From positions 1-14,945 of the forward strand of contig DNKW01000053.1 of the NCBI GenBank assembly GCA_003488655.1: 14,945 bases of DNA, in the 5' to 3' direction. The translations under genes were made by a program, and so were the position numbers. A model generated the notes under the pieces. That model was not told where the DNA came from and did not search any database. It saw only the letters and a list, made by a program, of their open reading frames with translations. Positions 1 to 12,302 of the stretch are shown here, piece by piece (the first letter of the stretch is position 1; each line of letters begins with the position of its first letter). This stretch comes from Candidatus Altimarinota bacterium. GTDB lineage: Bacteria > Patescibacteriota > Gracilibacteria > BD1-5 > UBA2023.

Positions 1-17
1 CCAAACAAACTTGTGAC

Positions 18-49
18 AAAAAAACAGTCCCCAATGAAACTGGAGACTG
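18..49 (-). terminator. Intrinsic terminator, minus strand
   Basis: A 9-bp stem (25-33 with 41-49, one G-U pair on the minus strand) is followed on the minus strand by seven T's (18-24). It lies directly downstream of the truncated tRNA 3' end at 64-84. I infer that it is the original terminator of tRNA-Phe, separated from the intact tRNA by the inserted DNA. Confidence 0.75.
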
Positions 50-63
50 ATTTTGTTTTCACA

Positions 64-84
64 TGGTGGCGAGGGGCAGAATTG
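64..84 (-). repeat. tRNA-Phe 3'-end fragment (att-like direct repeat, left copy)
   Basis: These 21 bp are identical to 6185-6205, the last 21 bases of the intact tRNA-Phe gene (part of the T-loop, T-stem 3' strand, acceptor 3' strand and CCA). Identity ends at both sides. The rest of the tRNA is missing: the bases at 85 onward cannot form the 5' strand of the T-stem. This is the pattern left by tyrosine-recombinase integration into a tRNA 3' end. A truncated second tRNA gene is the alternative. Confidence 0.7.
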
Positions 85-183
85 TCCACCTCTCCGCCGG
101 TGAAACGACTCTCTTTACTCTCGAAGCAAAATCGTTAGCTTCTCGTCCCGAGTTCTCGCGACCGTTCAGATTCAATTCTGCCC
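74..183. repeat. Inverted repeat of a tRNA T-arm segment
   Basis: Positions 74-84 are an exact 11-bp inverted copy of 173-183. The right arm extends to 171-183, which matches 13 bases of the tRNA-Phe T-loop and T-stem, but in the opposite orientation to the repeat at 64-84. A second, imperfect inverted pair overlaps it (about 115-131 with 175-191), so two folds would compete. It could be an integration scar or a structured RNA; I cannot assign it to a known RNA family. Confidence 0.45.
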
Positions 184-208
184 GAGAGTAATCATTTTGC
201 AAAACAAA

Positions 209-240
209 ACCCCCATTCTTGCGAATGAGGGTCTTTTTTT
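209..240 (+). terminator. Intrinsic terminator
   Basis: A 10-bp stem (209-218 with 223-232, one mismatch) with a TTGC loop is followed by C and seven T's (234-240). On the minus strand the stem is followed by an interrupted T-tract, so it may work both ways. No convincing plus-strand gene precedes it in the window. Confidence 0.65.
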
Positions 241-482
241 ATAAATGGTGGCGACTAGTGGAGGAAGTAAGAACTGCATTACAGTCATCAGATATGATTC
301 CTTATGTACCAAAACTCATTTAGATTTTATACCCAGAGTTTTCTTATAATTCTATTCGTGACAAACCTTTTAATATTACATCTTTCAAATAAAATATGTC
401 AATGCATTATTTTTCCAGGTTTTTGCTTTAAATGTGAGAAAATGGTAATCTAGATGCACGTAATCCGTAAAAGAACTGTTTC
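241..482. other. Intergenic, no gene seen
   Basis: No supported coding region is seen on either strand under the UGA-glycine code. The stretch starts with a 9-bp partial copy (246-254) of the tRNA-Phe 3' terminus, in the same orientation as 64-84, and ends with a candidate promoter for the following operon. The rest is A+T-rich and shows nothing else I can name. Confidence 0.5.
423..451 (+). promoter_or_regulatory. Candidate promoter of the island operon
   Basis: TTGCTT (423-428) and TAATCT (446-451) are separated by 17 bp, with 31 nt from the -10 box to the ATG at 483. The match is moderate, but it is the best before the first island gene. Confidence 0.35.
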
Positions 483-779
483 ATGGAACAAATAGGGCAA
501 GAAGACATCACCGAAATACAAACAAGAATCCATGGTTCTCTTTTGATGGATTCCAAAACGAAGGAGTATCTTCGTATGGTCGTACAGGATCCGGAAATAG
601 CGAAGCTCGTCAAAGAGCATCTGGAAACATATGTTCCTTATGAACAAACAGTTCTCGAGGAAATGAATCCGAAGATCCAGCAATTCGTTTCCCAGTGAGA
701 GAAATGAATAGAATCCATAGAACGACTCGAGGAAAAAGAAGAAGTAAAGTTTGCCATAGGAGCACTGCAATATATTTAA
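483..779 (+). CDS. Hypothetical 98-aa protein, first gene of the island operon
   Basis: I do not recognise this family. With UGA as glycine the frame runs from ATG 483 to TAA 777-779 and contains two TGA codons (696-698, 705-707). An in-frame TAA at 468-470 limits the start, and ATG 483 is the first start after it. The product is acidic, hydrophilic and probably mostly helical, with no signal peptide or membrane segment. The C-terminal third (residues about 72-98, after the two UGA glycines) is rich in Glu and Lys. The next gene starts 18 nt after the stop, so the two are probably cotranscribed. A small partner, chaperone or immunity protein for the giant protein is possible from position alone; no motif supports it. 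Confidence 0.7.
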
Positions 780-797
780 TATTTTCATCCGCTGTAT

Positions 798-3700
798 ATG
801 TGACGAGATTCCGATACTATCTCAAAAAATACTGAAAACACATCTTTCTTGCGAAAGGAGGTATTTTCCGATACTTCCGAAAAAAGTTCAAAACAGCATT
901 CAGAATCTCTGCATCAGTTTTCTTCCAGTATCGGCAGTCTTAAAAACCTCAATACAAAACTCCAGAAAATCAACACTCTTAAAAAGGCGCACTCAGGAAT
1001 CGATATGCTTTCCGTGCTCAATGGACTACTTCCGGAGAAGATAGCTACGCATAATTCCGACAATTCTGAAGTGCTCGCTTATTTTTCAGAGCAATGAGAC
1101 GATATAGTGCTGGTTGTTAACAATATCGTTTCCGGAAAAGAAATTATGGATTCCGAAAGCGCTATGAAAGCACTTCTCCGAAAAATAGATTCCATGATAG
1201 ATGAAGGAAAGATATCGGATATGGTCTGACAAAGCAAAAACCCAGACAAGATTATCCATTCATATGGAACAAGCGTTCTGTCGTATTGACAGACGCTTCA
1301 GAACATACAGACGACATATAAGGAAAATACCGACGTGGTTTCCTCTTTGTTCGATATAGGAAATAATATTTCAGGTATTTACAAGCAATCGTTTGAAAAT
1401 ACAAAAAACAATATCAATGTTTCTTACAAAGCTTTCTTGAAAGAATATGCTTCTCTTAAGGAGATGTACGACTTATCTCCTGAGCAGGAAAAGAAACTCG
1501 AACGAATAAAAAAATCGTTTGAAAGAATCCTTGCTTCCAAATTTGAAGTTCAGACATTGGCAAGTTCTATAGAAAAGAGCGATATTGTTCAATTTAGCGA
1601 AAGTTTCGCCGAAGATTTTATGGATTGAACTATTTGAAGGTATGCTTTGGCTGGAATAGAATGAGAATGCAAAGGATTCTACGCAGCCACTATAGGTTTC
1701 ATCGAGTTTACTTTCAAACTCGTCGTAGATGAAAAAGTGCGAGAATCTCTCTGGAAAGAACTCTGAAAACTTTGGAAATATCTCAAAGATAACTCTTCCG
1801 AACCGGGAAAAGTTTGGGCTGATGTTCTCTGAAAACTCTCCGAAGAAATAAAGAAAATATGAGCTCTCCCACAAGAAAAACAGGCCGAAGCGATAGGGAA
1901 TATATTTGGGAATATAGTCGGAACTATGGCTCTATGAGGATGAGCAGTGTGAGCAAAAAACTGGCTTTTAAACAGCGTTAAATGGGAAAAATGAATAAGT
2001 TTTGCTTCCAAAATGGCAGAGTATAGAAAAATACGTACATGGGAACATCTTGAAAAATATGTGATGGATATCGAATGAGGAGCATGAAAATGAGCCAAGG
2101 AACTGACAGGGAAGGATATGGTAAGTCTATTACAGGAAGTGCGCAATGGAACGATGAAAATATCGGATGTTCCGAAAGATATGGGAATACGAGATAAGGT
2201 TGCCGAGCTTCTAAAATACGGTGGAGAGATTCCAAAAGAAAGCGGTTTTGTTAATAAGGCCGCATGAAAAACGGCAGATTTAGCTATTTCATGAGCAGAT
2301 AAACTTGGTAAAACAACACGAAAAGTATTGACTGATTCTCCAGCTGGTAAAATAGCAACGACTATTTCAACCGAAACAATTTCTTATATTACAACCACTA
2401 TTGCGAATATAGATAAAGGCTTGTGAGCCCTCGAAAAGATAAAAAAACTTCTTTCTGTTCCAGAGAATGTCTGTGGAAAGATGAAGTGAGTTGTTGAGAC
2501 GACAGGAGAATGATATACTCGTACAATGGCTCTTAAGACGTTGAATCATCTCGAAGAAACTCTCTCGACCTTAAAAGAAAATATATTCTCTCTCGCAGAA
2601 AATATCTATAAAGATCCAAGAATTCTGGCAACTGCGAGTCGAGGTTTCAGTTATGCAGTTAATAATATTAAATATCTCCTCGAGAGACTTATTAAAGATC
2701 CGCTTTTCGCGAACATAACAGAAAAGTGAGCTATTATTGCTCCGATACAAGGGGAATTATGATTTCTGCTTGAGATAACCCAAGGACTTATAGGGGATAT
2801 AAAAAGTGGAACTTTGAGTGCGATAAAACAAAGCAATATTACTATCGGAAGTGGTAAAACAGCGGAAAGCCACTGGATCAACAGTACGGCGGATTTTATG
2901 CTCGGACAAAAGGAAGTGCTTACATATACGGGAGGAATGGCAAAAGTAACACGACAAGTCGAAATGGTCGGAGAAAATGGCGAGAAAATAACCAAGGAAC
3001 TCATCGGATATAAAGACCATACTGGAAAGATGATTATTGAGCCAACTTATGAAATGGCCCAAGATTTCAAAAACGGCTATGCGGTGGTCACTAAGAACGG
3101 GAAAGTTGATATTATCGATAAAAAATGAATTGCTTCTGGGCTTGATATAGAGGTGGATAAAGTGGGGGATATTCGAATTACTGATGATGGAAGAGCCATT
3201 ATGGAAATAAAAGATTGAAAAGTTAATTCAACTTGAATTTTCGATATGAAAAGTCGGAAATATATAATGATTGAATCAAATAAAAATATGAAATGGGATT
3301 ACCATTTTGGTAATGAAATATCTTTTTTTAAAGATACAAATGGATGGCGAATGATTAATGAAGAAGGAAAATTAGTTGAAGGAAGTTTCAAAACCAAACC
3401 AGAATGTCTATGAACAGAATGATGAGGCTATTTTATCGCGCAAGATGCGACCGGATGGAGAGTGATTGATATGAATGGAAAATTAACTGAAGGAAGTTTC
3501 AAAACCAAACCAGAAGGTTTTTGACGAGGTGGCTTTGTCGTGCAAGATGCGACCGGATGGAGAATATCTACGAGAAACGGTGAATTAACTAAAGGAAGTT
3601 TCAAAACCGAACCAGAATGCTTATGACATGGCTTTATAGCACAAGACGCAAGTGGATGGAGAGTTATTAGTGAATATGGAAAACTGACCGAAGGAAGTTT

Positions 3701-5279
3701 CAAAAATAAACCAGAACGCCTATGAACTGGTTATATCGCACAAGACACAAGCGGATGGAGGGTAATTAGCATGGAAGGGAAATTAGTTAAAGGAAGTTTC
3801 AAAACCGAACCAGAATGCTTATGACATGGCTTTATTGCACAAGATATAAATGGATGGAAAATAATTAGTAGAGATGGAAAATTAGTTGAAGGAAGCTTTA
3901 AAAACAGACCAGAAACTGAAATGGTTGGTTATGTTGTTCAAGACTCAAACGGATGGAAGATGATTACTGAAGATGGAAAATTAGTTGAAGGAAGTTTCAA
4001 AAATAGACCTATATGGTCATGATCTGGACTTGTTGTACAAGATACAAATGGATGGAATATAATTACTTGTAAAGGAAAATTAGTTGAGAAGAATTTTAAA
4101 AATGAACCTGAGATGTTGTGATTTGGTTATGTTGCAGAAGATACGACCGGATGGCGAATGGTTACTTATGATGGAAAAATTGTTGAAGGAAGTTTTAAAG
4201 CTAAGCCAGAAGAAATCTTTGAAAATCATGATTATTTTCTTGCAGAAGATATAAATTGAAAATTCAAAATAATGAATGATAAAGGTAATCATATTAAAAT
4301 AATTTTTGATAATAAGCCAGAAAAAATAGGAAATTATCTTGTTGGGAAAGATACGACTGGAAAATTCAAAATAATGAATGATAAAGGTAATTTTCTTAAA
4401 GTAACTTTTGATAATAAGCCAGAAAAAATAGGAAATTTTTGATTAAAAATACAAACTAAAAAAGGATTGCAGTTTATTAGTGAGGAATGAGATATCATGC
4501 CTGAATTATTTAAAGATATTCAACTAGGTACTGATGGAAATATCCGATTTGAAAAACTTAATGGAGATTTTTTTGAAGTTGATAAAAAATTTTTCCGAAA
4601 GATAGAAAAATCTTCCTCTCTTCAAAATAACGATGTTCTTCTTACTACTGCATTTCTCTCTGAGAATAAGGATTACATTGAAGCGGGATGAAGGAATGTT
4701 AAAAGAAACATAGACCTCCAAACCACCAGATATATCGGGGAAGATGCTCCAAAAATTATCGCGGTCCTCGAGAAGGATGCTAAATTGGAAGATTTCCTCG
4801 TAGGACTTCGAGTCGATAACAGAGAGACGAGTTCAAGTTTCAGAAAACTTATAACCAATTTTTCAGATATTAAGAATGTTTGAGATTTGAAGAAAAAAGT
4901 TTCTGAAACTGTGGATGAAGGAATTCGGGTATATATCCAAAAAATCAATGCCCGTCGAGACATACTGAATGGCGAGAAAGCAAGACAAGGACTGGGGAAG
5001 TTTGAAGAACTTTCTCCCCTTGAAATTACCTACCTCAAAGGCAAATACAAAGAGCGAATGGAGGAAGACTTTATGCAAGCGATACAGCAGGAAATGGCAA
5101 TACAGGAAGGGAAGTTATCCACTATGAGCCCACTTCTCTGAAACGAGGACAATCTCCGAAAGATTATGGGGAAATTCGTAACGAAAGATATGAAGCCGAA
5201 ATTGTATATGGAACTTGGTGGAACAGCAGGCTTTGAGAAATGGACAGAACAATCTTGAAGGGTTCGTAGAACAAAATAA
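798..5279 (+). CDS. Giant 1,493-aa WG-repeat protein, about 43 UGA-glycine codons
   Basis: Read with UGA as glycine, one frame stays open from ATG 798 to TAA 5277-5279 with no TAA or TAG; read with the standard code it shatters. The second codon is already UGA. By eye: residues 1-350 are a helical, Ser/Lys/Glu-rich N-terminus without a signal peptide; 367-392 are hydrophobic and Gly-rich, with three UGA within eight codons; about 400-735 are helical; about 745-776 form one classical WG-type repeat (EPTYEMAQDFKNGYAVV, then GKVDIIDKKG); about 845-1228 hold roughly eleven further repeats, mostly 33 residues, with core QDxxGWRxI...GKLxEGSFKxxPExLG; and 1234-1493 are a charged helical C-terminus ending in a basic tail. 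WG/KWG repeats are generally thought to form beta-rich binding scaffolds. Cellular location and function are unknown. A large effector, adhesin-like or phage-derived protein are alternatives. It lies 18 nt after the 98-aa gene and 24 nt before the 273-aa gene. Confidence 0.85.
3330..4480 (+). repeat. Tandem 33-codon WG-type repeats in the giant gene
   Basis: The GSFK element (typically gga agt ttc aaa) recurs at 3381, 3492, 3594, 3693, 3792, 3891, 3990, 4089 (degenerate, EKNFK) and 4188. Spacing is 111, 102, then 99 bp repeatedly, and two more divergent units follow to about 4440. Each unit has GGATGG coding for Gly-Trp. Units starting at 3594 and 3792 share about 46 nearly identical bases, which points to duplication of a two-unit (198-bp) block. 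The region is visibly more A+T-rich than the gene's ends. Confidence 0.85.
4259..4436 (+). repeat. Recent 102-bp tandem duplication in the giant gene
   Basis: The block coding KFKIMNDKGN (4259-4288) reappears at 4361-4390, and the block coding FDNKPEKIGN recurs at the same 102-bp (34-codon) offset. These two units have lost the Trp of the upstream repeats (GK in place of GW), so they are a derived subfamily that duplicated after diverging. Confidence 0.75.
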
Positions 5280-5303
5280 TTTCATTCATAATAATCCCTA
5301 TAT

Positions 5304-6125
5304 ATGACAAAACAAATTGAGAATATTCAGGAACAAAATACTCCTGAGGCTAGAGCTAAAAAGGTTCGTGATATTTTAGTGCAGAAAAAAGTTATCAAGG
5401 ATGCAGAGAAAGATATGACTATCCATTATATCAAGGAATGAGTATTTGCCTGGTTTGCTGGGAAAACTGTTGCTGGATTCCTTAAAGAAAACTGAGAATC
5501 GATTATTATGTTATTGCCTCTTGGTGAGAGTCCAAAGTTTGATCAGGCAGCATTCCTTGCAGGATACAGAGAAATTAAACAGAATAATGGAATATATGAT
5601 ATGTATCATATTCAAGATATCAATGAAAAAACAGGACAACCAAAACCAGGAGCAAAACCTCTTGATCAAACGAGTGTGGAATATTTCCAAGCATGGATGG
5701 ATATAGGTTTTTATCTTTCAAAACTCACCATAGAGATATGGAAACATCAAGATAGCGAATGAGTTTTCCATAAGGCAACCGAAGGTATGATTCATACTTT
5801 TTGGTATACAAAAACCCTTCGTATCCGAGATATCGAATCATTCCTTAAAAACAAGCAGATCGACAAGAAAATGTTCGATCAGACCTTGAAGACTATCCAA
5901 AGTCAGATAATCGGACAGATAAGCGACGAGCGTTTCGAGCGAATCGGCGATGAAATCACATTCGATGAACTCAGAGATTATTACGAGAAAGGCTTTCTCG
6001 ACAAAAACATCTACGAAAGAGCCATAAAAACCCTCGGTGAAGTCGAGGGAAAGAGAATGGAACGGAACAAAAAGAAAGAAGCCCTGAAAGAAAAAACGAA
6101 AGGAGAGTTGAAGAAAGTACGTTAG
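5304..6125 (+). CDS. Hypothetical 273-aa protein, last gene of the island operon
   Basis: I do not recognise this family. The frame runs from ATG 5304 to TAG 6123-6125 with three in-frame TGA codons read as glycine. There is no signal peptide. The middle (about residues 45-75) has a mildly hydrophobic stretch, FAWFAGKTVAGFLKENG followed by ESIIMLLPLG. Two similar 25-residue units near residues 179-201 and 221-245 share the pattern 'x-x-I/L-D-K-x-x-F/Y-x-x-A/T-L/I-K-T', reminiscent of SHOCT-type helical hairpins. The last 30 residues are strongly basic. It follows the giant gene by 24 nt and is followed by a strong terminator, so it closes the operon. A role connected to the giant protein is an inference from this linkage only. 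Confidence 0.8.
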
Positions 6126-6133
6126 AACCAATA

Positions 6134-6171
6134 AAAACCCCATCAGAATTAAGAAAAACTGATGGGGTTTT
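6134..6171. terminator. Bidirectional intrinsic terminator
   Basis: A perfect 13-bp stem (6134-6146 with 6159-6171) encloses a 12-nt loop, with T-rich tracts on both strands. It ends the island operon on the plus strand and, 13 nt past the tRNA CCA, the tRNA-Phe transcript on the minus strand. It would replace the displaced terminator at 18-49. Confidence 0.85.
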
Positions 6172-6184
6172 ATGAAAATTTACC

Positions 6185-6205
6185 TGGTGGCGAGGGGCAG
6201 AATTG
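6185..6205 (-). repeat. tRNA-Phe 3' end (att-like direct repeat, right copy)
   Basis: These are the final 21 bases of the intact tRNA-Phe gene on the minus strand and are identical to 64-84. The match ends exactly at the encoded CCA on one side and inside the T-loop on the other. Confidence 0.75.
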
Positions 6206-6259
6206 AACTGCCGACACACGGCTTTTCAGGCCGCTGCTCTACCACTGAGCTACCCCGCC
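6185..6259 (-). tRNA. tRNA-Phe (GAA)
   Basis: The minus strand folds into a complete cloverleaf: acceptor GGCGGGG with CCTCGCC (one G-U pair), a D-arm containing AGTGGTAGA, an anticodon stem GCGGC/GCCGT around the loop CTGAAAA (anticodon GAA, so UUY Phe codons), and a T-arm GGCAG-TTCAATT-CTGCC. It ends with A73 and an encoded CCA, and is 75 nt long. It lies 58 nt downstream of dnaE on the same strand and has its own promoter-like sequence. Its 3' end is the apparent integration target of the neighbouring island, and it stays intact. Confidence 0.95.
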
Positions 6260-6270
6260 GGGCGACAGTC

Positions 6271-6298
6271 ATTATATGAAAAACCGTAGGAATGCAAA
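6271..6298 (-). promoter_or_regulatory. Promoter of tRNA-Phe
   Basis: On the minus strand TTTGCA (6293-6298) and a consensus TATAAT (6271-6276) are separated by 16 bp. Reading the -35 box as TTGCAT gives 15 bp. The -10 box ends 11 nt before the mature tRNA 5' end. Confidence 0.6.
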
Positions 6299-6317
6299 AG
6301 ATTTTTTATTTTCTTCT

Positions 6318-9300
6318 TTACCACCCTTTCATTGCCACCCATTCCTCGATTATCTCAATGGATTCAACCGATATTTTTGTGTCTTTCTTTTGTCATTGGA
6401 TATCGATACATACCTGAATAGATCCCTTGGGAACTCCTTCCAGATAGATTTTGAGATCCATGAGATCCTGTCTACAGGCAGAAGAGGGGATTTTAATGAT
6501 GAATTCTTCCTTTTCTTCAGATTCCTGCGGAGTTTTTGCGATTATTTTTTCCATAGCGTCGTCTTCTGTTTCTTGTGAATCCGTTTCCATAGATATGTTT
6601 TTCTTCATTTCCGGTGTTTTGTTCTTTTTTTCATCTTCCATCTCACTCGTACTTTGCTCTTCGGTATATCCCGAGAGATTTACGAGTGCTTTTGGATTAA
6701 AAAGGTTTACATCATAGGCTTGTTGTCGGATGGAAGTTATGGTCGAAGCACGGATGGTCTGAGCCGTTACCGCCATCTCTCCATTTTCTTCGTTTCCTCG
6801 GAAAATACCCTCGACCAAGAGGATTTTATCTTCCTCAAGGAGAGGGGAGAGTGCTTCATATTCTTTGGAAAATACCAATACGGTGAATTTGAAATCGAAA
6901 CTATCACAGGTAGCGATGGCCATCATCTTCCCTGTTTTTGTCTGTACTTGCCGAACGGAGGTCACGAGACCGATGAGGCGCACCCGTTTCATCGCTTCCT
7001 TTTTAGAAGTCTTTGCTTGGAGTCCGGTTCTTTTGTCGCTTTCCTCCTGTGGAATTTCTGCAACTTTTTGTGTGGATGAAGTGCTCTCTTCCATATCTTC
7101 TCACCCTTGTTCTATCTCTATAACGACCCGTTCCGTCATTTTTTTCCGCCATTCAATAATATGTTCCATTCCAATGGTTCGCTTGTCCACATAAGGCTTA
7201 AGTCCATCGAGTCCGTGTCAGGAGACTCCGTATCCGATGGATTGTTTTTCTCCGCGGATTTTCTCTTCAAAAGTCAGAGCTTTGGCTTTCTCCAGAGAAA
7301 AACGAAGATGCTCGGTATTATGATGTCCAAGATCAAAGAGCCCTATCTGACTCGTTGCTTGCTTCTTTTCATTTTCTTTTTGTATCGCACTCATCTTGGT
7401 AATGGACGCAACGAGACTGGCACGATCTCCGAGATTGTCCAATGCTCCGGAGAGGATCAGGGCTTCCAATGCTTTTTTATTGATAACATCCCCGCTATTT
7501 CGCTCGATGAACTCATAGATGGTGGTATAGGGGGCATTCTCGCGATTGCGACGGATTGAATCGATCGGTCCGTCTCAGAGCCCTTTGATAGCCTTGAGTC
7601 CGAAACGGATATGCTTTTTATCGATAAAAGTGAAGTGTTTCATGGATTCGTTCACATCCGGCGGGAGAATCTCGATCCCTTTGGACTTGCATTCTCCGAT
7701 TTCCATGGTGATACGCTCCATATCTTCCTCGTCCGATACCATAAGAGCGGTCATAAATTCTGTCGGATAGTACGCTTTCAGATAAGCAGTCTGATAAGAG
7801 ATCATCGCGTAGCAGGCGGCATGGGATTTATTGAACCCGTACCCGGCAAACGGTTCGATGATATCCTCGAAGATATACTTCGCGAGCTCTTCCTTGTGTC
7901 ATTGAGACTTTGCGGCATCGATGAATTTCCCTTTTTGTTCCATAAGGAGATCGATTTTTTTCTTTCCTATCGCACGACGGAGGATATCCGCTTCGCCGAG
8001 AGAGAATCCCGCAAAAGCCTGAACGAGTTGCATAATCTGTTCCTGATAGATGGCGATCCCTTGAGTAGGCTTCAAGATAGCCTCGAGAGACGGATGTGGG
8101 TACGCAACTTTTTCGCGACCGTGTTTCCGGGCAATATATGTCGGGATATATGCAAGAGGCCCCGGGCGATAGAGAGAGAGCATCGCAATGATATCCTCAA
8201 ATACATTGGGCTTCAGATCTCTCAGATACTTGCGCATTCCGGCTGATTCCAGTTGAAATACCCCGGTGGTGTCTCCGTCTGCGAAAACCTTAAATACCTT
8301 CTTATCATCGAAGGTGATATCGAGAATATTCAAATCTTTCCCATGATGACTCTTGATAATCTTCAGGCATCGCTCGATGATGGTGAGGTTTCGGAGTCCG
8401 AGAAAGTCCATCTTCAGGAGTCCGAGATCTTCCAAAGGTCCTGCAGAAAATTGCGTAACTGTCGTATGTTCGTCTTTTGGCGGATGCTGAAGGGAACAAT
8501 AGTCGGTCATAGGTTTCGGTGCGATGATAACTGCACACGCATGAACCCCGAGCTGTCGAATGGATCCCTCGAGTTTGATGGCGTTGTCGATAACCATATG
8601 GTATCGGCTATCCGTATCGTATGCTTTTTTGAATTCTATCGATTCCTCGAGTGCGTCCTTGAGCTTGGTTCCCGGTTTTGACGGTATTGCTTGAACGAGT
8701 TTATTCATCTCGGCAAAAGGGATTCCGAGCGCTTTTCCCACATCTTTCACCGCCGCCCGTGCCGCCATAGTTCCAAAAGTACAAATCTGCGCTACATGAT
8801 CGGCACCGTATTTCTCCCGAACATATGTGATGACTTTATCGCGTCATTCATCCGAGAAATCCACATCGATATCGGGCATGGAGACACGAGAAGGGTTTAG
8901 GAACCGTTCAAAGAGTAGTCCATAGGGAAGGGGATCGATATCAGTAATATTGGAAAGATATGCGAGAATCGCTCCTGCGGCGGATCCGCGACCCGGTCCC
9001 ACGGGAACCCCGTTGTTTTTCGCATAGATGATGAAATCCGATACGATATTAAAATACCCGTTGAATCCCATAAGATCGACAACCACGAGTTCGTACTCGA
9101 GACGATCGATAATCTGTGATGCCGAAAAAGGCATATTTCGAGATGAGAGTTTTTTCTCCAATTCCGTGATTATTTCCTTTTTCCGATCGGTATAATAACT
9201 CCATGCGAGATTTTTGAGTTCATCCACAGACATTTCCATAAGTTTTTTGGGAGTTCCGAGAATATCTTTTTTATGGATGAATTCATTAATAGTGATTTCA

Positions 9301-10301
9301 TCAAGTCAGAAATCATACCGGAAATTCAATCCCGAGATACAGATATATCGGAGATTCCACTCCTCATCGGAGAGACTTTTTATTCCGGCGGGAAGACGGT
9401 CAATATATTCCTTATAGAGGACTTTCTCCTTTTCCCCGAGCTCAAATGTGGGGATAAGCGTTTCCCCATACGGGATATCGATACGGATTTTATCGTTGAT
9501 TTCAAGCGTGTTTTTTATCGCTTCCGGCATATGGGCAAAAAGTTCCGCCATCTCTTCCGGGCTCCGAAGAGCGTAATTTCCGTCGATGAGAGTCGGACGA
9601 TCGGGATCCTCGAGAGATCGACCGTCTCCGATGCAGTAGAAAAGATCGCGAGCCTCCGCATCACTTTGTTCGATGTAATACACATGATTTGTCGCAACTA
9701 CTTTATATCCATAGGTACGCGAGAGTTTTATGAGATAATCGTTGATCTTCGGCTGATTCCCCCGATCGGGATGCTCCTGAAGTTCCAGATAGAAGTCGTC
9801 TTTCCCGAAAATCCCTTCATAATATGCGATTCTCTGTCGGATGTATTCCTCACTTTTCCCCGTCGTGATGTGCTGTGGAATCTCTCCCATAATGGAACCG
9901 GAAAGCCCTATCAAGTGTTCTTTGTACTTTTCCAAGAGTTCAAAGTCGATGCGTGGTCGCCCATTGTACATACCATGGAGCCATGACTCGGTGATCATAT
10001 TGATGAGATTCTTATATCCTTCGATATTTTTTGCGAGGAGAACGATTTCGAAAAGCTCATTGTCCTTGTCTCGATTCGTTTTTCCTTTTTTGGAGATGGT
10101 TGCCTCCACTCCTATGATAGGATTGATACCCGCTTCTTTCGCCTTTTTATAGAACTCAAATGCTCCATAAAGATTTCCGGCATCGGTGATGGCAAGTCCC
10201 GGCATACCGAGCGTTTTCGCTTGTTTCACAAAAGCCCCGGGCTTTCCGAGTCCCGAGAGGAATGAATAGTGGGTATGAGTATGGAGGTGAACGAAGGACA
10301 T
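6318..10301 (-). CDS. dnaE: DNA polymerase III subunit alpha
   Basis: Replicative polymerase catalytic subunit, 1,327 aa (family usually about 1,100-1,200). ATG is at 10299-10301 and TAA at 6318-6320. Seven in-frame TGA codons (6393, 7101, 7218, 7575, 7899, 8844, 9306, lowest coordinate of each) read as glycine. Domains in order: PHP ([13 protein letters not shown] at residues 5-17, then [12 protein letters not shown]); palm, with [11 protein letters not shown] then PDIDVDF at about 476-482 carrying catalytic aspartates, and the third aspartate in [11 protein letters not shown] near 632; the helix-hairpin-helix region around [16 protein letters not shown]; an SGH motif; an OB fold ([18 protein letters not shown], about 1108); then a Glu/Ser/Lys-rich linker (about 1211-1265) and a short C-terminal domain. 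Several PHP metal-ligand positions look substituted. dnaE is divergent from the kinase gene and upstream of tRNA-Phe. Confidence 0.97.
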
Positions 10302-10332
10302 GGAACTGTTAATTTTTAGTTATTTTCGCGGT

Positions 10333-10360
10333 AGTATATTCAAAATTTGAAAAAACAAAA
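10333..10360 (-). promoter_or_regulatory. Candidate dnaE promoter
   Basis: The minus strand carries a good -10 box TATACT (10333-10338), with a weak T-rich -35 region (TTTTGT at 10355-10360, 16-bp spacing). The -10 box is 31 nt before the dnaE ATG. Confidence 0.45.
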
Positions 10361-10366
10361 ACTCTC

Positions 10367-10394
10367 TTGCCTTCTTTCATTTTTTTCATACTAT
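10367..10394 (+). promoter_or_regulatory. Candidate promoter of the kinase gene
   Basis: TTGCCT (10367-10372), 16 bp, TACTAT (10389-10394), then 28 nt to the ATG at 10423. The same TTGCCT-16 arrangement occurs before the PAP2 gene. It diverges from the dnaE promoter within a 121-bp gap. Confidence 0.55.
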
Positions 10395-10422
10395 TCATTC
10401 ATCTATTTTTTATTAAAAAATC

Positions 10423-10965
10423 ATGCAAAAAACGATTCTCGCACTTGCCGGAGAGATGGGATGCGGAAAAGGAACGCTCACCAAATATCTTGTTGCCAAG
10501 TATAGTGCGGAAGTATACCGATTCTCCAACCCGCTTCGCGATATTCTTGATCGGATGCACCGAGAGACGAGCCGCGATAATATGCAACAACTCTCGACCG
10601 CACTTCGGCAGGTTTTCGGAGAGGATATTCTTTCTGAAATCATCCTCGCGGATGTCGGGCAGAGCGAATCACCCTTCATCATCATCGACGGGGTTCGTCG
10701 GGAGAGCGATATAAAATACCTCCGGAATCTCTCCTGATTTAAGCTCGTCTATATCGATGCGGACTTGCAGACTCGTTATACCCGCATCACTTTTCGGGGA
10801 GAAAACAGTTCCGATACAACCAAAACCATCGAAGAGTTCATCCGGGAGACAGAGGCGGAAGCGGAGTCCAGGATCCGGGGACTCAAGGAAATCTCGGATG
10901 TTATTCTGGAAAATAACGGGACGATCGAAGAGTTGGAAAAGAGGTTTGAAGAGGCGGTGAAATAA
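10423..10965 (+). CDS. P-loop nucleotide kinase, CoaE/dNMP-kinase-like
   Basis: A 180-aa protein, ATG 10423 to TAA 10963-10965, with one in-frame TGA (10735-10737, codon 105) just before the strand FKLVYIDAD. Walker A is GEMGCGKGT at residues 10-18. IIIDGVRRESDI near 86-97 is the strand and following loop typical of small nucleoside or nucleotide kinases and dephospho-CoA kinase relatives, and RYTRITFRGEN near 115-125 resembles their Arg-rich lid. The product is probably a cytoplasmic phosphotransferase acting on a nucleotide or a coenzyme precursor. The substrate cannot be told from these motifs. It is the first gene to the right of the divergent dnaE promoter region, and rpsT follows after 141 bp with its own promoter. 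Confidence 0.8.
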
Positions 10966-10979
10966 TCCCTATAATAAAT

Positions 10980-11007
10980 TTGACTCTTCGACTCTTTTCT
11001 ATACAAT
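10980..11007 (+). promoter_or_regulatory. Promoter of the rpsT-infC cluster
   Basis: TTGACT (10980-10985), 16 bp, TACAAT (11002-11007). The leader to the rpsT ATG (11107) is about 90 nt, longer than others in the window, and holds a small hairpin (11012-11016 with 11026-11030). A longer leader would suit autoregulation by a ribosomal protein, but no known site is recognised. Confidence 0.65.
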
Positions 11008-11106
11008 ACCCGTACTTTTTTAATTCAGTACCATTTTTATTCTCCTTGTGTAAACCATGGAAAGTAGTACTGGATTCATTTTATTTTCATATTATTATCC
11101 TGTTCC

Positions 11107-11376
11107 ATGCCAAATACTTCATCGGCAAAAAAGGCCCTTAAACAAAGCCAGACAAAAGCATCTCGAAATCGCCGTTTCAGCGCTCTTTACAAAGAAACTC
11201 TCAAGGCTTTCCAAAAGTCTCTTGCATCTGGAGCTACAGACGGTCTTGAAATTCTTGCGAAACTCTACTCCCGTATCGATACTCTCGTAAAGAAAAACAT
11301 TCTTCACATCAACAACGGTTCGAGAAAGAAATCTCGTTTCGCAAAGATGCTCAAAGCTGTATCCGTTAAGTCATAA
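11107..11376 (+). CDS. rpsT: 30S ribosomal protein S20
   Basis: An 89-aa basic helical protein that fits S20 in length and sequence: PNTSSAKKALKQSQTKASRNR at the N-terminus, LYKETLKAF in the middle, and INNGSRKKSRFAKML near the end. S20 binds 16S rRNA early in 30S assembly. ATG 11107 has no Shine-Dalgarno sequence before it. There is no in-frame UGA; its three glycines all use other codons. The stop is only 3 nt before infC, so the two are almost certainly on one mRNA and may be translationally coupled. Having rpsT directly upstream of infC is not the usual order, where thrS often precedes infC. Confidence 0.95.
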   Translation: MPNTSSAKKALKQSQTKASRNRRFSALYKETLKAFQKSLASGATDGLEILAKLYSRIDTLVKKNILHINNGSRKKSRFAKMLKAVSVKS

Positions 11377-11379
11377 TCG

Positions 11380-11886
11380 ATGGCTCCAAAAGCAAAACGC
11401 ACCAATGAAAACATACGAGCCGATAAGGTTCAGGTTATCGCTGAGTCTGGAGAGCAACTTGGTATTATGTCTCTCTCTGAGGCTATTAACAAGGCAAGCG
11501 CTTTGGATATGGATATCGTCGAGATAGGAATGCAAGACGGAGTGGTTCTCACGAAGATGATGGATTACGGAAAGTTTCTGTTCAAACAACAGAAGGCTCA
11601 AAATAAATCCCATTCCAAGAAGACCGAGGTCAAGACGATTAAACTTACCTATAAGATAGGGGATCATGATCTCGAGATACGAAGAATTCAGGCCGTAAAG
11701 TTTGCAAAAGAAGGACATCCTCTAAAGATTATCCTTTCACTGAAAGGACGAGAGAATCGGTATGAGGACATCGCGATGGATAAGGTCAATGAATTCGTCA
11801 CTTCGCTCGCGGACGTTTACAAAGCAGATGGCAAGGTTATGAAGGCAGGAAATAATTTTTCCATCCTACTCCATCTCAAAAAATAA
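11380..11886 (+). CDS. infC: Translation initiation factor IF-3
   Basis: A 168-aa protein with the two IF-3 domains: an N-terminal domain (NENIRADKVQVIAESGEQLG, then SEAINKASALDMDIVEIG), a Lys-rich linker around residues 65-88, and a C-terminal domain (TYKIGDHDLEIRRIQAVKF, KIILSLKGRENRYEDIA, MKAGNNFSILLHLKK). IF-3 binds the 30S subunit, checks the start codon and prevents premature subunit joining. The start here is ATG (11380), not the AUU or AUA that permits autoregulation in enteric bacteria. The 3-nt gap after rpsT suggests coupling. There is no in-frame UGA in about ten glycine codons. rpmI follows after 71 nt containing a palindromic hairpin. Confidence 0.96.
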   Translation: MAPKAKRTNENIRADKVQVIAESGEQLGIMSLSEAINKASALDMDIVEIGMQDGVVLTKMMDYGKFLFKQQKAQNKSHSKKTEVKTIKLTYKIGDHDLEIRRIQAVKFAKEGHPLKIILSLKGRENRYEDIAMDKVNEFVTSLADVYKADGKVMKAGNNFSILLHLKK

Positions 11887-11896
11887 ATTCGTTTGT

Positions 11897-11918
11897 CATT
11901 CTCGCGAAAGCGGGAATG
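11897..11918. repeat. Palindromic intergenic repeat (single hairpin)
   Basis: A 9-bp stem (11897-11905 with 11910-11918, one G-U pair) closed by GAAA. It shares the GTCATTC... GGGAATG core of the larger element at 12158-12262. No T-run follows, so it is not a typical terminator. Confidence 0.7.
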
Positions 11919-11957
11919 CAATAAAATTATATCTTATTTCATTTTTAATTCATTTTT

Positions 11958-12158
11958 ATGAAACAGAAAACTCACTCAGGAGCAAAAAAACGTGTAAAGG
12001 TTACCGGAACTGGAAAGTTCATATTTGCTCATTCCTGTAAACGACATCTCCTCTCCGATAAGAGCAAGAAGGCAAAGGGACGAAACAAATACGGTATCGT
12101 CGCTCACGGAACGAACAAATTGGCAGCACAGAGATGTCTCCCTTACGGAATCAAGTAA
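11958..12158 (+). CDS. rpmI: 50S ribosomal protein L35
   Basis: A 66-aa, strongly basic protein, ATG 11958 to TAA 12156-12158. It matches L35 in size and pattern: [19 protein letters not shown], then [15 protein letters not shown] and a Pro-Tyr-Gly-Ile-Lys end. L35 is a late-assembling 50S protein. Its place between infC and rplT is the classical order. No in-frame UGA occurs among seven glycine codons. No Shine-Dalgarno sequence precedes the start, only an A/T-rich leader. Confidence 0.95.
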
Positions 12159-12262
12159 TTGTCATTCCCGTGAAGACGGGAATCTACCAAATATCCCGCA
12201 GGGGAGGTTTTGATTGTATTCCATAATACAAGGAAGATTCCCTCTTTCGAGGGAATGACAAT
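12158..12262. repeat. Palindromic element between rpmI and rplT (MITE-like)
   Basis: A 105-bp segment whose ends are a 12-bp inverted repeat (12158-12169 ATTGTCATTCCC; 12251-12262 its complement). Each end also folds on its own: 12164-12171 with 12176-12183, and 12237-12244 with 12249-12256. The second hairpin is followed by a T-run (12262-12267) and might weakly terminate or attenuate transcription before rplT. The left end overlaps the last base of the rpmI stop. It resembles small dispersed palindromic repeats, and a related single hairpin lies at 11897-11918. Confidence 0.7.
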
Positions 12263-12302
12263 TTTTTCTAAATAACTCATTAATTAACTAATTACTTAAA
12301 AT

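Follow-up and report, generated by a model that had tools for sequence, protein, structure and literature searches.

The stretch of DNA considered here (the window) comprises 14,945 bp of contig DNKW01000053.1 from a Candidatus Altimarinota bacterium, and the features of interest are an island inserted at the 3' end of its tRNA-Phe gene and, beyond the far end of this island, an older structured unit, here termed an echo unit. The host is a Gracilibacterium reading TGA as glycine, as indicated by long open frames under genetic code 25 and by its closest DnaE proteins, which are from Gracilibacteria. ARAGORN detects a single tRNA in the window, an intact tRNA-Phe(GAA) at 6185-6259 on the minus strand, which scores 71.5 bits with Rfam RF00005. 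The chromosomal flank beyond it carries dnaE (6318-10301, minus strand), matching at 91% the DnaE of genome G147 and at 88% that of G199, in both of which dnaE likewise adjoins tRNA-Phe. The last 21 bases of the tRNA (nt 56-76, window 6185-6205) recur as an exact direct repeat, TGGTGGCGAGGGGCAGAATTG, at 64-84, where approximately 1.5e-8 exact tRNA-end copies would be expected in the whole window from base composition alone. This repeat, the identity of its right copy with the end of an intact tRNA gene and the lack of a tRNA body at its left copy had all been reported in an initial annotation of the sequence, and are borne out by repeat comparison, RF00005 and ARAGORN. That annotation lacks two features: a third copy of the tRNA end, shorter than the others, at 246-254 (TGGTGGCGA), and a structured region spanning 74-183; the minus strand of 60-245 folds with z = -5.6. 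It is highly probable that the locus has two layers, a younger cargo-only island of a serine-recombinase family (246-6184) lying atop an older folded echo unit (64-245).

The limits of the island were established by comparison with relatives. Searching 27 genomes of this Gracilibacteria family for tRNA-Phe gave matches in 23. Among these, G187 and G253 have no island, yet the 21 bases are present a second time in both, at a distance from tRNA-Phe of 158 bp in the former and 196 bp in the latter. The left repeat is therefore older than the island. Furthermore, window 254-56, read on the minus strand, aligns with G187 from the end of its tRNA-Phe onward in one piece (199 columns, 91.5% identity, one gap), spanning the last nine bases of the tRNA, the spacer, the structured region and the sequence past the second copy; in G253, the core of which is of another type, the first 85 columns align at 91.8%. 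The unbroken alignment to G187 implies that tRNA-Phe was formerly joined to 245-64, and hence that the inserted stretch is 246-6184, with junctions at 246 and 6185. The repeat flanking the island is thus 9 bp long (TCGCCACCA): the outer attachment (att) core at 246-254 on the minus strand, a remnant of the tRNA-Phe 3' end, is identical to the inner core at 6185-6193. An island at the 3' end of tRNA-Phe, as initially proposed, is accordingly confirmed by the sites without it in G187 and G253, but its proposed extent (64-6184, as a single insertion) is contradicted by the same two genomes and by the G187 alignment, and the 21-bp repeats are very unlikely to be its att sites. The comparison of this locus in relatives that had been suggested as a check did yield island-free sites, although the second 21-bp copy is retained in them.

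Two terminators had also been invoked in the original account. The one at 18-49 (minus strand) has a stem at 49-25 with a T-run and is identified by the terminator scan, but it follows the tRNA-end copy of the echo unit and was not displaced from tRNA-Phe by the island. The second, proposed as bidirectional, is a hairpin with a T-run at 6134-6171, at the tRNA-side end of the island; it can be seen by inspection, whereas the scan of 1-6400 did not include it in its four terminator-like sites, a count no higher than that in shuffled sequences.

The outermost part of the island (246-345, minus strand) is conserved in 4 of the 27 family genomes. Over approximately 95 bp it matches G089, G147 and G252 at 85-92%, and over 69 bp it matches G247 at 78%. 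In G089 and G147, elements of about 16.0 kb and 17.3 kb, respectively, terminate distally in this sequence; both start at tRNA-Phe, encode a large serine recombinase beside it and have the same core, TCGCCACCA, at their distal end; genes of these two elements other than those next to tRNA-Phe were scanned in part. The G252 element, also at tRNA-Phe and with the same outer end, has TCACCACCA in place of this core and is only about 2.8 kb long. It contains one large open reading frame (ORF) of 833 aa that matches nothing in Pfam, PHROGs or PADLOC at E<=0.01, and a recombinase search there gave, besides the tRNA antisense, a single weak match containing stop codons (E 2.9e-7, 27%). The outer end and the recombinase of G247 are on separate contigs and probably belong together. 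Proteins with Resolvase, Recombinase and Zn-ribbon domains adjoin tRNA-Phe in G089, G147, G199, G247 and G070, although in G199, the recombinase of which is related at 65%, no match to the outer end was found. Where elements with this outer end encode a recombinase, it is a large serine recombinase, so that the tyrosine recombinase initially suggested as the integrator is not supported.

The outer end in common with the G089, G147 and G252 elements points to the window island being a cargo-only member of this tRNA-Phe family, either moved in trans or stripped of its recombinase. A serine recombinase like those of the related elements would join the last nine bases of tRNA-Phe to an attP on the island, leaving the tRNA intact and displacing the echo unit by 5.9 kb; the island itself would then depend on a recombinase supplied in trans, or would have lost its own. 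Two observations weigh against this interpretation: the tRNA-side end of the island is unlike those of the serine-recombinase elements, and the 9-bp core is short. The recombinase search in the island covered its three ORFs. These gave no Resolvase or Recombinase match and no tyrosine integrase, and the earlier statement that no recombinase lies within the island holds to the extent that neither Pfam nor PHROGs yields one for them.

Decay from a serine-recombinase element and a satellite nature are finely balanced as accounts of the island, decay being given slightly less than an even chance. Only the outer end is shared with the G089 and G147 elements and no recombinase was found in the island ORFs, both as expected of decay, but the three ORFs are long and open, and G252 provides a recombinase-less element with the same end. 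The island resembles the known islands that large serine recombinases insert at tRNA 3' ends in its tRNA-Phe site, its outer end of approximately 95 bp and its 9-bp core, and differs from them in that no recombinase was found in it or in the G252 element, and in that the core measures no more than 9 bp. Cassettes that have no recombinase of their own and are mobilised in trans include SCC-like elements without ccr and phage satellites. The island is like these in carrying only cargo and in sharing an end with a helper-bearing family, but its host is a code-25 Gracilibacterium, unlike theirs, and its helper is putative.

The G147 element also encodes a primase, and IetS-like and type III restriction-modification proteins were detected in it by PADLOC (L135:2831-5335 and 7619-11638), which give this element at least the look of a defence-type island. 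Its serine recombinase frame (L135:17091-18902) continues through the antisense strand of tRNA-Phe, so that C-terminal residues 569-594 correspond to tRNA sequence while the element is integrated, and a like pattern is seen in the ORFs of G089, G199 and G247. A partial second serine recombinase match in G199 (C1:140915-143560; 51% to that of G147), beside the one at tRNA-Phe, suggests tandem elements. In the window, a promoter-like TTGACA-18-TAATAT (10/12) at 402-373 on the minus strand, near the outer end of the island, is directed at the echo unit; promoter-like sites in the scan are no commoner than expected by chance or in shuffles.

The echo unit itself occupies 64-245 on the minus strand and is ORF-free. 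Read from 245 to 64, it consists of a spacer (D; 184-245), which lay directly behind tRNA-Phe before the island arrived, as the alignments to G187 (91.5%) and G253 (91.8%) indicate, and which carries a strong hairpin at 207-240; a structured core (X; 74-183); and, as its 3' end, the exact copy of tRNA-Phe nt 56-76 at 64-84 (21/21), also found in G187 and G253. With its 5' arm (173-183), which is complementary to approximately nt 57-67 of the same tRNA, X can close as a stem, P1, on the copied end (3' arm 74-84). The core is assigned to type 1 on the basis of the covariance model R1, its folding score and covariation. Its score of 122.6 bits with R1 is that of one of the model's four seeds, but the 91.5% match to the unit behind the G187 tRNA-Phe is independent of R1. 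Only the tRNA reaches an Rfam gathering score in the window, and no family does so over the echo units examined; four weak matches around the D hairpin (E 0.29-2) lie far below their gathering scores. A known RNA family was therefore rejected for the unit, as were a second tRNA, a tRNA pseudogene or a tmRNA for the left repeat, since ARAGORN shows no such body at 64-245. In G187, the start of a core of a second type (GGAATTGAAACCGTAGC) lies behind the type-1 unit of tRNA-Phe (L106:1725-1760), giving layered units at one tRNA. In G147, an echo-arm-like CAGAATTGAA is found 63 bp past the distal att core, in keeping with echo units being older than the islands.

Such units are not confined to tRNA-Phe. 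A BLAST search with the G187 unit retrieved a relative in G191 lying behind tRNA-Met and ending in a copy of the tRNA-Met tail, and a scan of 73 tRNAs in the retrieved loci, some of which overlap, found units at further isotypes. The model R1, built from four type-1 units, gave 18 matches in 12 of 353 genomes of the class at E<=0.1. Fourteen of these are behind a tRNA and one (L169) is truncated by the start of its contig; the remaining three, from G291, G070 and G059 (E 0.04-0.08), at loci without a tRNA, were taken as chance. A second model, R2, for the type-2 core, identified 52 places in 15 of the 353 genomes at E<=0.01, of which 40 follow a same-strand tRNA at a distance of no more than 400 nt, the gap being mostly 50-66. 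Seven of the 12 R2 matches without an annotated tRNA were inspected, and five of these follow a CCA-ending remnant. Within the family, 19 of the 27 genomes have a match to R1 or R2 when the weak G070 match is excluded; in 18 of these at least one match is behind a tRNA, while the sole match of G243 is elsewhere, and a unit found in G211 by direct survey would make a twentieth. In the rest of the class, nothing beyond the weak R1 matches of G291 and G059 emerged, and R2, the one model run across the phylum, matched one of 379 genomes, G187 itself, and none of the 378 others. All of these searches used stricter Infernal filters with 9-10 first-look candidates scored per genome, so that the counts are lower bounds and the absences soft.

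The tRNA-derived ends of the units can be assessed without the models. Among all 123 RF00005 tRNA genes of four genomes picked for units already seen (31 in G003, 43 in G001, 31 in G187 and 18 in G253), 14 have their last 21 nt repeated in the next 450 nt with no more than two mismatches, and 19 have a copy or a complementary arm. In a set of 163 distinct tRNAs, which includes loci retrieved because of a unit, a copy within two mismatches is found downstream of 23, compared to one when the 450 nt upstream are searched, one when another tRNA's tail is used and none on the reverse complement. Arms within two mismatches number 13 downstream and none upstream. In the 23 units with a copy, this starts 92-240 nt behind the tRNA. 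The copies are often imperfect: of the 40 type-2 units that follow a tRNA, 20 have one within three mismatches. A third core type with a decayed tail copy was observed behind tRNA-Arg(tcg) in G187 (L213), resembling the core behind three tRNA-Leu genes of G003.

Covariation establishes that echo units fold. In the type-1 alignment of 16 rows, four of them seeds, 87.4% of cells are paired and 21 of 26 pairs have changed on both sides, whereas slid controls reach at most 46.7%; the alignment was fitted to the structure and is hence biased towards it. A further helix outside the model, in which UCY-GA-RY pairs with RY-GA-RGA through tandem G.A, is paired in 98.7% of 75 cells and shows 17 double changes; its covariation score exceeds that of each of the 500 shuffles, and slid controls reach no more than 66.7%; the tandem-G.A positions are kept in 15/15 and 14/15 of the rows with letters. 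This helix was noticed on that same alignment; as it played no part in the fitting, we hold it to be the best evidence that the units fold as the sense strand. For type 2, a four-row alignment of the core has 98.2% of cells paired and 15 of 30 pairs changed on both sides, with slid controls at or below 46.4%; the structure was drawn on these same four sequences.

Whether the arms track their own tRNA was investigated in 47 units following tRNAs of 14 amino acids, namely 14 of type 1 and, out of the 40 tRNA-associated ones of type 2, 33; the sample left out L169 and L170, which are cut or without a copy, and seven type-2 units that are mostly far behind their tRNA or have the copy elsewhere. 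On average the arm pairs with its own tRNA at 9.0 of 11 positions, against 7.3 with others, the high background reflecting the likeness of T-arms to one another, and pairing at nine or more positions occurs in 31 of 47 own comparisons but 312 of 2100 others. Copies are exact over nt 57-67 in 35 of the 47 units. A test of the longest run in 24 units gave a mean of 8.5, compared with 6.3 for shuffled spacers and 6.7 for other tRNAs, several single units being no better than their own controls.

The general order is tRNA gene, spacer D (often with a terminator), X and copy of nt 56-76. From these observations we infer that X constitutes a small element that is non-autonomous and addressed to tRNAs, and that folds either as RNA or as single-stranded DNA. 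Its arms would be kept matched to the host tRNA, and it would spread among tRNA genes, partly along with tRNA paralogues. Since site-specific recombination between isotypes would bring the wrong tRNA's end, there are two possible routes: insertion itself copies the end, or tRNA paralogues and gene conversion carry the units along, which adapt afterwards. The latter route has some support in two neighbouring tRNA-Arg genes of G199 with a nearly identical unit, and in the paralogous tRNAs of G001 and G003, which have the spacer in common too. The spacer and arm are repeated after the copy at L208, L128 and L165, which fits tandem or repeated events. We tentatively propose that echo units are a new class of tRNA-addressed element that settles behind tRNA genes and bears a copy and the complement of the T-arm end of the tRNA concerned, as folded RNA or single-stranded DNA. 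A copying step of a new kind would adapt one family to the tRNAs of 14 or more amino acids, and the units might be RNAs that exchange or supply tRNA 3' halves.

Not all of the data favour this proposal. The tandem-G.A helix fails to exceed the shuffles in two of five measures, these being doubly changed pairs (3) and pair types (212 and 500 of the 500 shuffles). The other 20 of the 40 type-2 copies have more than three mismatches, often retaining only the first 11-15 nt and having lost the CCA. The arm pairs at seven or fewer of 11 positions in nine of the 47 units (five of type 1, four of type 2), and where the copy differs from the tRNA in nt 57-67 (12 of 47 units), the arm fits the copy better in two, the tRNA in four and both equally in six; this split gives no clear vote for P1 as a selected pairing, and limits the claim that P1 itself is selected. 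Finally, given the hairpin before X and promoter-like sites no commoner than in shuffles, transcription of X is no more than a possibility.

The main rival on how the echo units work is that they are host RNAs acting on the preceding tRNA, the 5' arm or the 3' tail (acceptor strand and CCA) pairing with the tRNA or its precursor in its processing, repair or control. Both arms are tRNA-like, as the own-tRNA pairing indicates, by eye no terminator is seen between the tRNA and X in several units, and the type-1 helices contain 17 G.U against 7 A.C cells. We nevertheless consider such a role possible but rather unlikely, given that the presence of units varies among close relatives, that many type-2 copies have lost the CCA and that G.T and tandem G.A could also form in single-stranded DNA. 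Improbable, though to be taken seriously in view of the decayed 3' ends of many copies and the repeated spacer and arm at L208, L128 and L165, is that the units are dead remnants, either element ends or tandem tRNA duplications that have lost their middle; a recurrent covarying core, in two types and at many isotypes, is not expected of such debris, and ARAGORN shows no second tRNA body in the window or at the G191 locus, although a bare 5' half would escape it.

With regard to known systems, the att remnants of tyrosine-integrase prophages likewise consist of a tRNA 3' end copied downstream of its gene, but echo units differ from them in having a conserved folded core and a complementary arm, in their association with tRNAs of 14 amino acids and in usually carrying the end of their own tRNA. 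Miniature inverted-repeat elements and REP palindromes are short, multicopy and hairpin-forming with complementary ends. Echo units share these properties, but their ends are variable, resemble each host tRNA and lie behind tRNAs. In their covarying helices and tandem G.A they are like the structured RNAs of Rfam. A search of the open-access literature found no title or abstract start describing similar units, and we know of no system that re-fits its ends to each of many tRNAs. On the limited ground of these Rfam and literature negatives, the echo unit appears to be new, whereas the island is of a known kind.

The cargo of the island comprises three genes on the plus strand. The first (483-779) encodes a 98-aa protein of unknown function with a weak homologue in G199 (E 0.0023); the second (798-5279) encodes a 1493-aa protein with WG repeats (PF14903, 39.5 bits) and homologues in G199 and G095; and the third (5304-6125) encodes a 273-aa protein of unknown fold with relatives in 5 of 242 class genomes, one of them a weak match (E 2.8e-4). 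The AlphaFold model of the third protein has a pLDDT of 88.9, and a fold search with it gave no PDB match at E<=0.001. In G199 and G095 its relative adjoins the homologue of the 1493-aa protein, and as the G095 set is on the 5' side of tRNA-Phe, the cargo does not seem bound to the tRNA-Phe att site. This cargo, a WG-repeat protein and two small unknown proteins, is unlike the gene set of the G147 element. A viral origin was rejected on the ground that the third protein has no relative in viral_contigs, in a search reaching close relatives only, and a defence function because none of the three proteins has a PADLOC match. Elsewhere in the window, REP-like palindromes (TTGTCATTC...GAATGACAA) are found at 11893-12263, within a stretch resembling what we take to be translation genes.

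The tRNA-Phe gene is also used by elements of a different kind. In G002 and G095, small tyrosine-integrase elements (L087:3256-14358 and L142:961-11254, respectively) are present at this gene, with repeats of 46 and 45 bp lying 11,028 and 10,249 bp apart. A match to the M13 protein I family (E 0.0044) and one to a head-morphogenesis protein (E 0.00057), both weak, together with the small size of the elements, suggest that these may be inovirus-like, that is, filamentous prophages of Gracilibacteria. That a single tyrosine-recombinase event of this type inserted 64-6184, with the 21-bp repeats as attL and attR, would account for an exact repeat in the right place but can be all but dismissed, given the repeat without an island in G187 and G253, the alignment to G187 across the supposed interior and an end of the island's own at 246 that it has in common with serine-recombinase elements.

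In Gracilibacteria, tRNA-Phe is consequently a hotspot for serine-recombinase islands, tyrosine-integrase elements and echo units, and the layering in the window illustrates that a repeat of a tRNA end is by itself no proof of an island's att site. The island found here would be a cargo-only one, with an outer end matching that of recombinase-bearing relatives, one of which carries defence genes. If echo units are mobile, the copying step that fits them to their tRNAs would be a new integration mechanism; if they are instead host RNAs, they would constitute a tRNA-paired RNA family present in most of the sampled genomes of this family (19/27 by model).

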